DNA of 28,652 nt from a virus, in IMG/VR virus record IMGVR_UViG_3300035701_009374, positions 1 through 28,652 of that record; one strand, given 5' to 3'. Below the pieces are notes generated by a model, which saw only the letters and a list, made by a program, of their open reading frames with translations, had not been told where the DNA came from and searched no databases. The position numbers and the translations under genes are program-made. Every line of letters starts with the position of its first letter. Position 1 is the stretch's first letter. Shown one piece after another: positions 7,836 through 25,100 of the stretch.

Positions 7836-7841
7836 TTTCTC

Positions 7842-7870
7842 TTGACGGGACCCCGCCGCGGCGCTACTAT
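7842..7870 (+). promoter_or_regulatory. sigma70-type promoter for the C4-like RNA and antirepressor
   Basis: TTGACG (7842-7847), a 17-nt spacer and TACTAT (7865-7870) form a near-consensus promoter just after the preceding stop codon. Transcription would start near 7877. It is the best plus-strand promoter in the window. Confidence 0.75.
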
Positions 7871-7876
7871 GATGGC

Positions 7877-8010
7877 GTCACGATCTATAGCGGGTTGCCC
7901 GCGCCGTCACAAGCGGCATTTCTTGTTTTTGGGCAATAAACCCGAGAGTCCGCGTTCCGTGAGGGCGCGGCGGCCCCTATAGAGCCGTGACAACTCTCGG
8001 GCCTTTTTTT
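7877..8010 (+). ncRNA. C4-type antisense RNA candidate
   Basis: A leader of about 130 nt lies between a strong promoter and a T7 tract and has several stems. CCCGAGAG (7941-7948) pairs with CTCTCGGG (7994-8001) and encloses CCGCG/CGCGG and a GGC/GCC hairpin whose loop reads CCCTATAGA. CCTATAGAG in and beside this loop is the exact complement of CTCTATAGG (8026-8034), which runs into the AGGAGG ribosome site of the antirepressor gene. In phages P1 and P7 the c4 RNA is made from the ant promoter and blocks ant translation by this kind of pairing. The layout promoter-RNA-ant is the same, so a C4-type function is inferred. Confidence 0.6.
7941..8010 (+). terminator. intrinsic terminator closing the antisense RNA
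   Basis: The 8-bp stem CCCGAGAG/CTCTCGGG is followed by CC and seven T (8004-8010). The long branched loop is unusual for a simple terminator and suits a regulated attenuator ahead of the antirepressor. Confidence 0.6.
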
Positions 8011-8043
8011 GTCCCGGGGTCAAAACTCTATAGGAGGTGTCAG

Positions 8044-8784
8044 ATGGACACAGGTCAAGCAGAAGGGGTGCCGGTCGCGATCCGGCACATGGAAAATGGC
8101 GAATGGGTGGATGCGCGTGAGCTGCATGCCGCCCTCGGTGTAGGCCGCGAGTTCCCTACCTGGATAAAGGGACGTATCGAGGAATGTGGATTCCTTGAGG
8201 GGTTCGATTACCACCCCGCCAAATCGGGCGGATTTTCCGCCGGATCTGGCGGAAAATCCAGCCGCGGGCGCCCAAGAGATGTCTATCTTCTCACTCTCGA
8301 CATGGCCAAAGAGCTCTGCATGCTCGAAAAAAATGAGATGGGCCGGAAGATCAGGACCTATTTCATCAAAGCCGAGCAGGCCGCCAGGTCCTATGCGTCG
8401 GCGTTCTCCAGCATTTCTTTGGTCAATCTTCAACGCGCGGCGATCTGTAATGAGTTTTGCAACACCCCGCTTCGGGTCAACACAGTGGAGCATCTTCTCT
8501 ATTACGGATCTATGAAGCCGCCGCTGCGCAACACGGACATCGCCAAGCTCTTGGGAATATCGTCACCTTCGGTGTGCCATTACATGCAGGTAGTGCGCCC
8601 AATCATGGCGGCGACCAGGCCCGAGGAGATCGTCCAAATAATCCAGAGGAGACAGGAGGAAAGAGGGACCAAGATTGTTGAAAGAGCCCTTGGCCTGGGA
8701 CCTATTCTTTCCATGTTTGATAAGTTCTTGGAACCGAATCCCAACTTTCCGGCCTCCGGTAAGCCGAAAGGGGGCACTCCGTGA
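8044..8784 (+). CDS. AntA/AntB-type phage antirepressor
   Basis: A 246-residue protein. Residues 17-108 form an AntA/AntB antirepressor domain (NGEWVDARELHAALGVGREF, IKGRIEECGF, YLLTLDMAKELCMLEKNEMG). Such proteins inactivate phage repressors and promote lytic growth. The C-terminal region contains a likely helix-turn-helix (DIAKLLGISSPSVCHYM, about 165-181), so it may also bind DNA. ATG 8044 has AGGAGG at 8033-8038; a GTG at 7987 would lie inside the RNA leader. Translation is probably repressed by the upstream C4-type RNA. A 12-bp hairpin interrupts the domain at residues 63-72. Confidence 0.85.
   Translation: MDTGQAEGVPVAIRHMENGEWVDARELHAALGVGREFPTWIKGRIEECGFLEGFDYHPAKSGGFSAGSGGKSSRGRPRDVYLLTLDMAKELCMLEKNEMGRKIRTYFIKAEQAARSYASAFSSISLVNLQRAAICNEFCNTPLRVNTVEHLLYYGSMKPPLRNTDIAKLLGISSPSVCHYMQVVRPIMAATRPEEIVQIIQRRQEERGTKIVERALGLGPILSMFDKFLEPNPNFPASGKPKGGTP
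8230..8259. repeat. perfect 12-bp inverted repeat inside the antirepressor gene
   Basis: GGATTTTCCGCC (8230-8241), a 6-nt loop, then GGCGGAAAATCC (8248-8259). It encodes a Gly/Ser-rich loop in the middle of the AntA domain, just before the conserved RGRPRDVYLLTLDMAKE segment. Confidence 0.9.
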
Positions 8785-8954
8785 GCTCCACCGATAAGAT
8801 CGATCAGATGGAGCGGGCCGTGATGGAGATGGATGCGGTGGTGGATCTGATGGCCACCGCGGATATCCGGCAGCTCAAGAAGGAGACCCTGGGAAATATT
8901 TCCTGGCTCTTCGATGACCTGCTGGATGATTTTCGAAAGGGCTTTCACGATTGA
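8781..8954 (+). CDS. 57-aa acidic protein coupled to the antirepressor
   Basis: A GTG start at 8781 overlaps the antirepressor stop (GTGA), and the frame runs to TGA at 8952-8954, giving 57 residues. The product is acidic, Met-rich and helical (MERAVMEMDAVVDLM, ending FDDLLDDFRKGFHD). It is followed by a terminator, so it is the last gene of the unit. It is too short for family recognition; the coupling and lack of a gap support it. It could modulate the antirepressor, but this is a guess from position. Confidence 0.55.
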   Translation: MSSTDKIDQMERAVMEMDAVVDLMATADIRQLKKETLGNISWLFDDLLDDFRKGFHD

Positions 8955-9000
8955 AAAAGTGATCTGAAATATTCCCCAAAAGGAACGCGGATTATTCCTA

Positions 9001-9030
9001 AGCCCCGGGAGACCGGGGCTTTTTCTTTCT
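9001..9030 (+). terminator. intrinsic terminator after the antirepressor unit
   Basis: AGCCCCGG (9001-9008), GAGA loop, CCGGGGCT (9013-9020), then a T-rich run (TTTTTCTTTCTT). This is a strong rho-independent terminator separating the antirepressor unit from the lysis genes. Confidence 0.88.
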
Positions 9031-14524: not shown

Positions 14525-15886
14525 ATGAAGTCGGTGGCTCCGGAGGGGTCTGCCCCGGAGCACGATGCACTGCAAGCAGCATACCGGCCCGCGCCAGATC
14601 TAACGCTCACCGCGGATATCGAGCAGCTTCTCGCATCCTCCTATGCCCTTGGGATGGATCATGCGGTCACCCCGATCAAGGCGGCAGATGAAGTGCCGGC
14701 CATGGATTTCAAGGAAGCCGTGGCCGCCATCAAATCCCGGGTGCCTCTCACCAAGGCCGATTGGTCGGCTTTGGAACCAAAGCTCCGCTTTCGGGCCTTC
14801 ACGGTGGCGCGACTCTCGGAGCTGGATGCAATCGAGAAGGTCCGCCGATCGGTAATCTCCGTACTCGATGAGGGCAAGCCCTTCTCCGAGTTCTGGACGG
14901 AGGCGAATGCACTGCAGACGGCGGGCTTCTCCCCGGGCTCGCCCTGGTATTGGGAGACGGTGTTCCGCACCAATGTGCAGACCGCATACAACACCGGCCG
15001 GGCAGCCGAGTTCTCCCGGGTGCAGCCGGAATACTTGGAGTTCGTGGGGATCGAGGATGAACGGCAGACCTGGATCTGCGCCAAACGGTCGGGAGTCATT
15101 CGGCCCGCCTCGGATCCCTGGTGGCAGCAGAACTGGCCGCCGCTGCATTTCAATTGCCGTTCCACGGTCCGCGGTGTTTTCCAGGAGGAAGTGGATATCA
15201 TGCGGGAGCAGAACCCGGGCTGGGGCATCACTCCGGATTCCGCGCTTGACCCCCGGCAAGCACGCGTTCAACCGGGCTTCGGACAGAACCCCCTCTCCAC
15301 GGAAAGCTTCTGGAAGCTGACCCCGCAGATGCTCGAGCGCGCGGAAAGCTATGGGATAGCCGACGAGCTTCGCGCATTCGCCAAGGAGCTCGGGTTTGAA
15401 GATCCGATTCTCGGCTCAAGGCTTTACTCAAAGGTACCGGCCGGAGCGGAACCAGGTATTTATACGCGCGAGATCACTGATCCGTCGGGCGGCTACGTCG
15501 ACGTGGGCTCGTATCATAATAAGAAGGAGATGCCGCAGAATATCGCGATCGGAAAAGAATATGCACGCCGTGGCAAAAAGGTTGTTCTTCTCTCGGTAGA
15601 CAATGTTTCAAAAAGCGCGGATGCGCTCGTTGATGGAAAGCCCATTGAGTTTAAGACAGTAAAATCTCCATCCGCCATTGATGAGGCATTACGATCAGGC
15701 AAAAAGCAGGCTGACTGGGTTACTATCGATATCGGATTTGAAGGGAATCGTGGAGAATTGAAGAGGGCGATCAAGGATCGCGTCAACCGTTCCGCGAACC
15801 TTCGTGGTGTATCGCTATTGATTGGCGGTCGGCTTGTTGAGCTGTCCAGAGACATGATCCTTTTGGATGATTTCGGGGGGCTTTAA
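14525..15886 (+). CDS. MuF head-morphogenesis protein with C-terminal putative nuclease toxin
   Basis: From its first ATG this frame encodes 453 residues, but it is open and protein-like from 14387, with no start codon or ribosome site, so a portal fusion by -1 frameshift is likely. Residues 95-215 are the MuF domain (SP1 gp7/Mu gp30 type), with YWETVFRTNVQTAYNTGRA and WPPLHFNCRSTVR. Residues 300-453 form a separate domain with D370, E375 and K377 in ALVDGKPIEFKTV, and QADWVTIDI, resembling PD-(D/E)XK-type CdiA-CT nucleases. MuF proteins with toxin tails are known polymorphic toxins of temperate phages. No immunity gene is evident beside it. Confidence 0.85.
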   Translation: MKSVAPEGSAPEHDALQAAYRPAPDLTLTADIEQLLASSYALGMDHAVTPIKAADEVPAMDFKEAVAAIKSRVPLTKADWSALEPKLRFRAFTVARLSELDAIEKVRRSVISVLDEGKPFSEFWTEANALQTAGFSPGSPWYWETVFRTNVQTAYNTGRAAEFSRVQPEYLEFVGIEDERQTWICAKRSGVIRPASDPWWQQNWPPLHFNCRSTVRGVFQEEVDIMREQNPGWGITPDSALDPRQARVQPGFGQNPLSTESFWKLTPQMLERAESYGIADELRAFAKELGFEDPILGSRLYSKVPAGAEPGIYTREITDPSGGYVDVGSYHNKKEMPQNIAIGKEYARRGKKVVLLSVDNVSKSADALVDGKPIEFKTVKSPSAIDEALRSGKKQADWVTIDIGFEGNRGELKRAIKDRVNRSANLRGVSLLIGGRLVELSRDMILLDDFGGL

Positions 15887-22195: not shown

Positions 22196-25100
22196 CCACT
22201 GAAAAACTCCGCCTCGAGATCGAGGTTGCTGTAAAAGAAGCCCTTGTGAGTCTCAAGGCTATGTCTGCGGAATACAATCACCTGGCCGCGGAAGCCAAGC
22301 GCGCTGTCCCGACTACGTATGAGGTCAAGGCCGCCATGGCCGGCCTCGAGCATGACCTCAAGACCAGCGCCCAGGCCGCCAAGATCATGGGCGATGAGAT
22401 GGGAGGGCTCAAGGAACAACAGGCGCGCCTCAAGACCGGCATCACCGATCTTCTCAGCCGCGGGCTTACCCCAGAGTCCACGGAGATCCAGAAGCTCAAG
22501 TCCCAATATGATGAGACAACCGACGCCATCAAGCGCCACGGCGGCGGGGTGGATGATCTCAAATCAAAGCTTGCATCGCTTGTAGAAACCGCGGCATTGA
22601 TGGCCATGGCGAAGAAGGCTTTTGACTTCATCGGCGGATCGGTGACTCAATTCGCGGACGCGGAGGCCTCTGCGCAACGGCTTGACCTCGCGCTGCAGAT
22701 GCATGGGATGGAATCTTCCGGGCCTCGGCTCAAGGCGTACGCCTCCCAGCTTCAGGATATCGCCGGCATCGATGCGGACCTGGTTATACAGCTCGAAGCG
22801 GAGCTCGTGGCCCAGGGTAAGAGCCGGGAGGAAATCGAGAAGACCATCAAGGCCGCGGCCGGACTCGCCGCGGTTACCGGAGATGATCTTAATTCCGCCG
22901 TTGCGCAGCTCGACATGACCTATTCCGGCGTCGCCAGTCGGGGCTTAGCTCGGTATATCCCTGAGCTGAAGACCCTCACGGAAGAGCAGCTCAGGAACGG
23001 AGCTGCCATCGATATTATCGCCAATAAATATGGCGATTTTATAGGCAAGACGGGCTCAACCCAAATAGCTCTCTCGAGAATGAGGGCGGACCTGGGGGAT
23101 GCGCGGGAAACTTTCGGTTCACTTTTTGCTCCCGCGGTGAGCAGCGCGGCCACCATACTGTCCGGGTTTGCCAAGGCCGTGGCCAACGCAGGTGTAGTCG
23201 GGAAAGCAATGGCCACCATCATAACAAGCGTACTATTGGGTGCGCTTGCCGCCTTGCTTGCAAAATCCATTGTTCTTACTGTCGCCAAGCTCGGGCTCCT
23301 GGGAGCCCAGATGTCTGTCAACCTGGCTATGGCCGCCGCCAACCCTCTGATCTGGGCGGGGATTGCCGCGGTGACGGCCGCAATCATTGCCGTAGGGGTT
23401 TTTGTCGCCAAGAAACAGGCGGAGGCGAGGGCTATTCGGGATTCGGCAGCAGATTCAAATGCCGCGGCGGCCGCTTATGACCGGATGGCCTCCGCGGCCG
23501 ATCGCGCCGCTCTTGCGAAAGCAAGATTATCCCAAACCTCCCTCGAGAAAAAAATAGAAGATCTGAATGAAAGTTCAGTGAAAAACAGGATAGCAATGGG
23601 AAGTGATAAAGAAATCCAAGCTCAAATTGATAGATTGAAAGGGCAAAGGCTACTAATCGGGAATTTGAGCGATAGCGTAATAAGCAGATATGAGGATGAA
23701 CTCGACCGCAGGCATAAGGCGAGAGCCGATGCCGATGCCAAAGCCATTGAAGATAATTTTCAAAGAGAAATAGACGCCAGTAAAAAGGCGGGAGAGTTCC
23801 GTATAAGCTGGCAAGAGCAGTATCAGAAGTACTTGGCTGAAAATAGCGGCGATCCGTTCGCGGAGATTGAGCGCGAACGGTTGAAGGCCGTGCAGGATGC
23901 AGTGAACGCCATCGGCTGGGAGCAGACCACGCTTGCCCAGATTAATGCGGTCTATGCCGCCAAGCGGAAAACCATCCAGCTCGACCTGGACCGGAATGAG
24001 CGCGAGCAGCTTGCCAAGCTCACCGAATCAAAGCTCGACGATCTCGAGCTTGAGAAAGTGAAATCCATTGCGTTCTTCCGGGAAGGGAGCGCCGCGCGCC
24101 TCGCGATAGAAGCTGACTTCGACAAGCGCATGGCCGCAATACGTATCCAGGAAGCTTTTGATGCCGCCAACAAGGAAAGGGCTTTCTATGCCAAGCTCTC
24201 CGAATCCAAGCTCGATGATCTTGAGCTCGAGCGGGATCGCGAGCTCGCACTTTTCACGGGAACAGAAGAAGCGAAGGCGGCTATCGCAAGATATTACGCC
24301 CGGAAGATTGCAGACGCTCAGATCGAGGAGCAGAAACGCGTATTCCAGGAAGCCTTAAAACTTGCCGCTCAACAGAAGGATTGGGGCAAATACACAAGCC
24401 TCGAGTTCCAGAACCAGGCGCAAGGCACCGACGTCGGCAAGATGATGGGGTTTGCAGGCAGCCCCGCGATGGATCCCAGGAGCATGATCATTTCGGATCT
24501 TGCCCAGATGGCCCTCTCAATAAAGAACGTGAACGCGGTTTTGAATCCTTTTCAAACAATCTTTGAGGGAATGAAAAGGGTAATTGAACCGCTGCTCAAT
24601 AAGGATCTTCAGGGCATGGTCGATGCGCTCATGGAGATCGGGATCGCTCTGGGCGAAAGCGTTTCTCCCTTCCTTTCCATCCTCGGCATAATGTTCCAGA
24701 TCGCGGCGGGGATCCTCAAGGTAACCGTTATTCCCGTCATGCAGCTCTTGGGAGCTGCCATGATGTGGCTCAACAACAATGTGATCGTACCATTCGGCAA
24801 TGTCGTCATCGATATCATCAACGGCGTGATCTGGGCAATCAACCAGGCGCTGGGGTGGCTGGGAGTGAATATCGCGGAGCTCCAGCATCTTGCCGTGGTG
24901 CAACAACAAACCGTGGCCGACATGAGCGATCAAATAGCGGATGTGGATAAGGCCCTCGAAGTCCTCCGGCAGGTCTTCGAAGATAAGCGGAAAGCAATTG
25001 AGGATGCCTATGAAAAGAATATACAATCGTTGCGTAAGCTCCTTGGAATAGGCGCCATAAGTGAAAGCGCATACGACATAATGGCCGCCGCTTATAATCA

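Follow-up and report, generated by a model that had tools for sequence, protein, structure and literature searches.

Does the leader of the antirepressor operon in this Mu-like phage encode a C4-type antisense RNA, as an original prediction held, and how would such an RNA act? The window, an IMG/VR virus record of 28,652 bases analysed over its whole length, carries Mu-type genes for a transposase (MuA), MuB ATPase, Gam, GemA, Gp27, Mu portal, MuF and capsid E. Judged by its genes the phage is Mu-like, and its host is probably a spirochaete, because relatives of the window terminase sit in Treponema, Spirochaeta and Gracilinema MAGs. The antirepressor operon is placed between the early and the lysis genes, and its leader is untranslated. 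The AntA domain (PF08346), the Mu gene set, a layout like that of phage P1 and coevolution across 16 leaders all support the prediction, and we regard a divergent C4/c4-2-type antisense RNA from the antirepressor operon leader as highly probable. The leader and operon features, with names after the a, b and C4 elements of phage P1, are as follows.

7842..7870, + strand: sigma-70-type promoter TTGACG-17-TACTAT (-35 at 7842-7847, -10 at 7865-7870), its end 6 bases 5' of the a1b1-like site
7877..7894, + strand: a1b1-like upstream target GTCACGATCTATAGCGGG, where the transcript is predicted to start; complement of the a'b' strand
7890..7930, + strand: small hairpin GCGGG-TTG-CCCGC (7890-7902) with GCCGTCACAAGCGGC and a T-rich tract after it, read from the sequence; its function is presumed
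7941..8010, + strand: C4-like RNA core, a three-way junction whose P1 helix, followed by CC and T7, makes an intrinsic terminator; assigned from covariation and a match to model R2 (below)
7941-7949 / 7993-8001, + strand: P1 helix, CCCGAGAGT / ACTCTCGGG, followed by CC and then T7 at 8004-8010
7951-7955 / 7965-7969, + strand: P2 helix, CGCGT / GCGCG, within the P1 helix
7956..7964, + strand: P2 loop TCCGTGAGG, strongly conserved as CCGYGAGG in relatives
7971-7974 / 7984-7987, + strand: P3 helix, CGGC / GCCG, within the P1 helix
7975..7992, + strand: antisense strand, made of the P3 loop b' (CCTATAGAG, 7976-7984) and the joining strand a' (TGACA, 7988-7992)
8019..8037, + strand: target a2 (GTCA, 8019-8022) and b2 (CTCTATAGG, 8026-8034), overlapping the Shine-Dalgarno AGGAGG at 8032-8037
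8044..8784, + strand: antirepressor, 246 aa, AntA domain at residues 22-97 (PF08346, E 6.5e-21; PHROG anti-repressor Ant, E 4.1e-35)
8781..8954, + strand: small ORF of 57 aa that starts with GTG and overlaps the 3' end of ant
9000..9021, + strand: intrinsic terminator at the operon end, from a terminator scan

Within the window, the P3 loop at 7976-7984 is the exact complement of b2 at 8026-8034, and the 9-mer occurs at only these two sites (0.04 expected). The TGAC at 7988-7991 pairs with GTCA at 8019-8022 and extends the duplex across a 3x3 internal loop, and the energy observed for the loop and its target was reached by none of 5000 shuffled targets. Three parts of the original prediction, namely the exact match of the loop to the antirepressor ribosome site, its TGAC extension and a branched leader closed by a terminator, are thus borne out. 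It had overlooked a third element: the predicted transcript begins with a further copy of the target (7877-7894), the equivalent of phage P1 a1/b1. The loop strand pairs more strongly with this 5' copy than with the copy at the ribosome site (-35.4 vs -27.8 kcal/mol; -23.4 and -20.8 kcal/mol when strand 7975-7992 is folded with short fixed stretches), and in the minimum-free-energy fold of the full leader the pairing with the a1b1-like site is present and the terminator helix is replaced. The core of the loop, CTATAG, is palindromic, and any two copies of it are able to pair. With this palindrome, and with a promoter match no better than chance, the window was insufficient by itself, and it was the relatives that decided the question.

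A comparative search of spirochaete genomes and viral contigs yielded 15 further distinct leaders, or 16 with the window. The pattern used in the first scan, a terminator-closed hairpin with an interior complementary to a downstream start site, gave one clear second case in a Treponema MAG (L027), where the loop is CAGTTAA and the target sites differ correspondingly. Patterns together with covariance models added members from viral contigs (L045, L048, L060/L063, L072, L073) and from spirochaete genomes (L064, L065, L075-L080, L082, L083). Model R2, built from eight relatives with the window excluded, scores the window at 57.6 bits (E 2.8e-13); it found no match at any meaningful score in the phage P1 and P4 loci. 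Pattern matches L046, L047, L049-L059, L061 and L062 were rejected as chance, and the counts leave aside the weak model matches L066-L069, L084 and L085. No close relatives of the window Ant protein or transposase were found among the viral contigs, no DNA similar to the window leader was found in annotated phages, and the leader was absent from the terminase relatives except L027. Spirochaete AntA genes chosen by PF08346 were likewise without such a leader, and therefore the RNA tracks the phage module, not AntA.

To compare native with foreign pairings, duplex energies were computed between the antisense strand of each member and the 5' site and ribosome site of every member (16 distinct loops). 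The native a'b':a1b1 duplex was the best in its row in all 16 cases and the native a'b':a2b2 duplex in 13 of 16; the a2b2 sites of three members were bound as well or better by the strand of another. Native energies averaged -18.7 kcal/mol for a1b1 and -16.4 for a2b2, and foreign energies -8.5 and -8.6. No random re-pairing in 200,000 was as good as the native set for either site, and when all 40,320 permutations of eight members were enumerated, the native arrangement was the single best for each site. The stretches were hand-picked at homologous positions, which may have inflated the absolute energies, but the contrast between native and foreign pairs should not arise in this way. In members whose loops are not palindromic (CAGTTAA, CGTAAGT, CTTGTTG and CTGTATG), both sites are still exactly complementary to the loop. 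In all sixteen loci the loop has changed in concert with both the 5' site and the copy at the ribosome site, which shows, at the level of comparative sequence, that the pairing is real. This three-way coevolution shows what c4-2-type RNAs pair with, and the sets of loops and targets vary between phages, as immunity groups would.

The helices also covary. In a seven-member MAFFT alignment, which was not fitted to any structure model, pairing in the P1 helix amounts to 98.6%, both partners have changed in 6 of its 10 base pairs, and none of 500 shuffles equalled this. Counted over its 18 distinct rows, the model alignment has 90.6% of cells paired and changes in both partners at 14 of 19 pairs (equalled by none of 500 shuffles; slid controls 34-48%), although this alignment was fitted to the structure and the seven-member alignment is the cleaner test of the P1 helix. 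A T-tract stands at the end of the P1 helix in every member. The best conserved stretch is the nearly invariant CCGYGAGG of the P2 loop, adjoining a P3 loop that varies freely; no conserved pairing partner for it was found in the leader, where the window has a five-base chance match only.

The original prediction had also called the promoter strong. A promoter is present at 7842-7870, but it is an ordinary 9/12 match, of which about 1.2 would be expected by chance in a regional scan, and it is weak by itself. A sigma-70-type site lies 2-12 bases 5' of the a1b1-like site in 16 of 16 members, with matches averaging 9.7/12 vs 6.9 in shuffles. Since every member has such a site just before the 5' site, the transcript is predicted to start with the a1b1-like site. 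Because the coevolution of a1b1 is no looser than that of a2b2 and the site lies at the promoter-adjacent 5' end everywhere, we conclude that it is under selection of its own. A leader ORF from the ATG at 7873 to the TAG at 7981 was rejected, as its start precedes the predicted transcript start. Between the 5' site and the RNA core, the hairpin and T-rich tract at 7890..7930 form a possible weak early terminator; a terminator scan reported a terminator-like match at 7903-7917, and relatives keep GCGG..CCGC..GCGGC-TTTTTT at this position. A GCGG..CCGC..GCGG motif with a T-tract also follows b1 directly in phage P1 (L013:370-415), as it does in the window family, and from this resemblance an early terminator common to both is possible.

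Downstream of the RNA, at least 10 of the 16 members have AntA or Bro-N/KilAC antirepressors. The target gene is of the AntA type in the window, L045, L060 and L073, and of the Bro-N type, once with KilAC, in L027, L072, L075, L076, L078 and L080; that of L079 resembles L076, and that of L048 encodes an HTH protein. With both AntA and Bro-N versions downstream, one RNA therefore governs two unrelated types of antirepressor. The target class is not absolute. At L064, L065 and L082 the RNA precedes short proteins in which no antirepressor domain, or any other known domain, was recognised, and near the L064 and L065 RNAs, the two sites checked, no Mu-like genes were recognised. These loci suggest a satellite or domesticated use of the RNA. 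No family was found for the small ORF at 8781..8954, and an ORF of similar size follows the antirepressor in L027, L045, L048 and L060. Such an ORF, of 57-68 aa, overlaps or closely trails the antirepressor in operons of the AntA, Bro-N and HTH kinds (window 8781-8954; L027:5098-5301; L045:4965-5171).

The original prediction had counted a missing match to the Rfam C4 model against itself, and the match is indeed missing: with RF01695 (gathering 45 bits) nothing was reported at E 10 in 7840-8060, whereas the phage P1 and P4 controls scored 68.8 and 74.9 bits. We trace this to divergence. The related c4-2 model (RF02944, gathering 41 bits), which belongs with C4 to Rfam clan CL00128, left the window unmatched as well, but five relatives exceed its gathering score (L077 55.8, L075 46.1, L079 44.9, L027 44.4 and L045 44.0 bits), L076 falls just short, and no c4-2 match was reported for L048, L060, L064, L065, L072, L073, L078, L080, L082 or L083. 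A c4-2 scan of 393 spirochaete genomes gave no matches, and its controls were likewise unmatched, for which reason it carries no weight as a sign of absence. Neither c4-a1b1 (RF03163; phage P1 control 51 bits), sought upstream of the core, nor isrK (RF01394; P4 control 60.8 bits) matched the window. A C4 match at 23274-23343 (13.8 bits) was dismissed as chance. Since some relatives score above the c4-2 gathering threshold, and the window is recovered by model R2, from which it had been left out, we classify the window RNA, on sequence grounds, as outside Rfam C4 in the strict sense and as a divergent c4-2/C4-type RNA. It has in common with c4-2 the helix that closes the structure, the pair of hairpins inside it, the joining strand and the U residues that follow, while the P2 loop differs, being CCGYGAGG in the window family and of the GAAA type in the c4-2 model. 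We found no description of c4-2 targets beyond the Rfam motif listing; the primary c4-2 paper may note similar ones.

In architecture the locus resembles the c4-ant operon of P1 and P7, as had been proposed: promoter, a1/b1, C4, a2/b2 and antirepressor operon follow one another in one transcript, and the phage P1 record annotates putative a1 and b1, then C4, a2 and b2, in an order identical to that of the window. The phage P1 core aligns as P2, P3 with b' in its loop, and an a' joining strand. The window has the same arrangement of three helices: the P3 loop carries b', the strand between P3 and P1 carries a', each of the two is complementary to the start of the gene, and b2 lies over the Shine-Dalgarno as in phage P1 (PMC5320573); it has also the second complementary site 5' of the RNA and an antirepressor operon as target. 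There are differences. In phage P1 the closing helix is without a U-tract and C4 is cut out by RNase P (PMC5320573), whereas in the window the closing helix is the predicted terminator itself, and phage P1 C4 targets icd, 5' of ant, whereas the window RNA would target ant directly. The CI RNA of P4 is credited with causing early termination of transcription by way of sites on either side of itself, seqA and seqC (PMC4825925), and it resembles the window RNA in being complementary to upstream and downstream sites in its own transcript. The P4 leader matches both Rfam C4 and isrK; it has no sequence match to the window, controls replication genes and not an antirepressor, and has a closing helix without a U-tract. 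The T-tract after the closing helix in every member is thus a clear difference between the window family and the P1 and P4 phages. With IsrK of Gifsy-1, a single antirepressor leader gives two RNAs, a short one that ends at a terminator and a long one made by read-through, and IsrK activates (PMC4825925). The window leader would share the two forms, but IsrK differs in activating and its family has no match in the window. These comparisons place an antisense RNA in the style of P1/P4 immunity in Mu-like phages and prophages of spirochaetes.

By analogy with phage P1 C4 (PMC5320573), silencing of ant translation in trans is very likely. A single promoter would start the RNA at the a1b1-like site, and most transcripts would stop at the P1-helix terminator, giving an RNA of about 130 nt that may be trimmed further. 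Its b' and a' would then pair with a2b2 over the Shine-Dalgarno of the read-through ant mRNA and block translation. The same antisense strand could also pair with a1b1 in cis, excluding the P1 terminator and hiding the antisense loop, since the a1b1:a'b' duplex uses the strand beside the 3' arm of P1 and spans the 5' arm and is incompatible with the terminator helix. A phage entering a cell free of the RNA would thus read through and make the antirepressor; in a lysogen, the resident RNA would occupy a1b1 and so let the terminator form again, with less transcription of ant and more of the RNA itself as the outcome.

Partition-function folds bear on this transcriptional step. When a1b1 was blocked, formation of the P1 helix rose from 0.00 to 0.64 in the window, from 0.07 or less to 0.67-0.98 in L060, L064, L072, L073, L080, L082 and L083, and from 0.55-0.68 to 0.96-0.97 in L027 and L065. 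The terminator was dominant with a1b1 free or blocked in L045, L075, L076, L077 and L078 (5 of 16), and in neither state in L079. These values describe equilibrium and are silent on co-transcriptional folding; as such they back attenuation in some leaders and not everywhere, and from folding we give an attenuation step an even chance or a little less. The fuller proposal is that the locus is a self-sustaining RNA immunity switch, in which the closing helix is the operon terminator and prophage RNA captures the incoming a1b1, forces termination and so makes more of itself. We put it forward tentatively, as a serious possibility. It suggests a combined translational and transcriptional switch and, if true, would constitute a bistable decision circuit whose specificity resides in a seven-base loop that, with its two targets, is exchangeable between phages. 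The RNA may have a role in immunity; a second immunity system beside a Mu-type repressor, as had been proposed, finds no counterpart in the gene set, in that no repressor gene was recognised within the 28.7 kb record.

A simpler account, in which the RNA silences translation only, a1b1 is a second target or decoy and the terminator merely forms the 3' end of the RNA, would explain the strong coevolution of a2b2 at the Shine-Dalgarno and is at ease with those five leaders predicted to form the terminator whatever the state of a1b1. It sits poorly with a coevolution of a1b1 equal to or stronger than that of a2b2, with the position of a1b1 at the 5' end just after a promoter in all members, and with a predicted fold that a1b1 flips in the window and seven others; we find it somewhat doubtful. 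Opposite in sign would be activation in the manner of Gifsy-1, whereby the short RNA would make an inactive read-through mRNA accessible and so turn the antirepressor on. IsrK, too, is an antirepressor leader cut short by termination, and it acts on the read-through mRNA of that leader (PMC4825925), and Rfam isrK does match the P4 leader, but the target here is the Shine-Dalgarno itself, where pairing should block the ribosome site, and with the window unmatched by isrK we judge activation very improbable.

The strong conservation of CCGYGAGG, for which no partner was found, invites the idea of an antitermination or processing element that binds a protein, for example at the P2 loop, with RNA pairing secondary. 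This leaves the covarying loop and targets unexplained and is improbable. Finally, an ordinary intrinsic terminator whose palindrome matches by chance could have been read from the window by itself, CTATAG being self-complementary and the promoter match being at chance level; members with non-palindromic loops nevertheless keep exact complements at both sites, and the helices covary. The comparative data refute this reading, to which we attach almost no weight. The preferred interpretation is the antisense RNA of the divergent C4/c4-2 type described above.

Several further observations were made at these loci. In L080 (G483:C153:3451-3518) a second RNA core lies in tandem with the first, some 300 bases 5' of it; it has no corresponding target at a ribosome site and is either a decayed duplicate or a second regulator. 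The L073 leader is preceded, about 140-180 bases 5', by a sequence like the 3' end of tmRNA, and a tmRNA fragment (65 bits) lies within phage record L060 (6264-6346, - strand). The MuF-like protein of the window (14525-15886) has a C-terminal CdiA_C domain (PF18451, E 5.5e-7), making a MuF head protein fused to a polymorphic toxin domain possible. An Rfam scan reported no Type II hammerhead ribozyme in the window; the scan found such ribozymes at 49.6-54.1 bits, well over gathering, in L045 (646-725, + strand), L048 (6805-6881, - strand) and L060 (8630-8705, - strand), where they lie near the Gam/GemA genes of these Mu-like phages.
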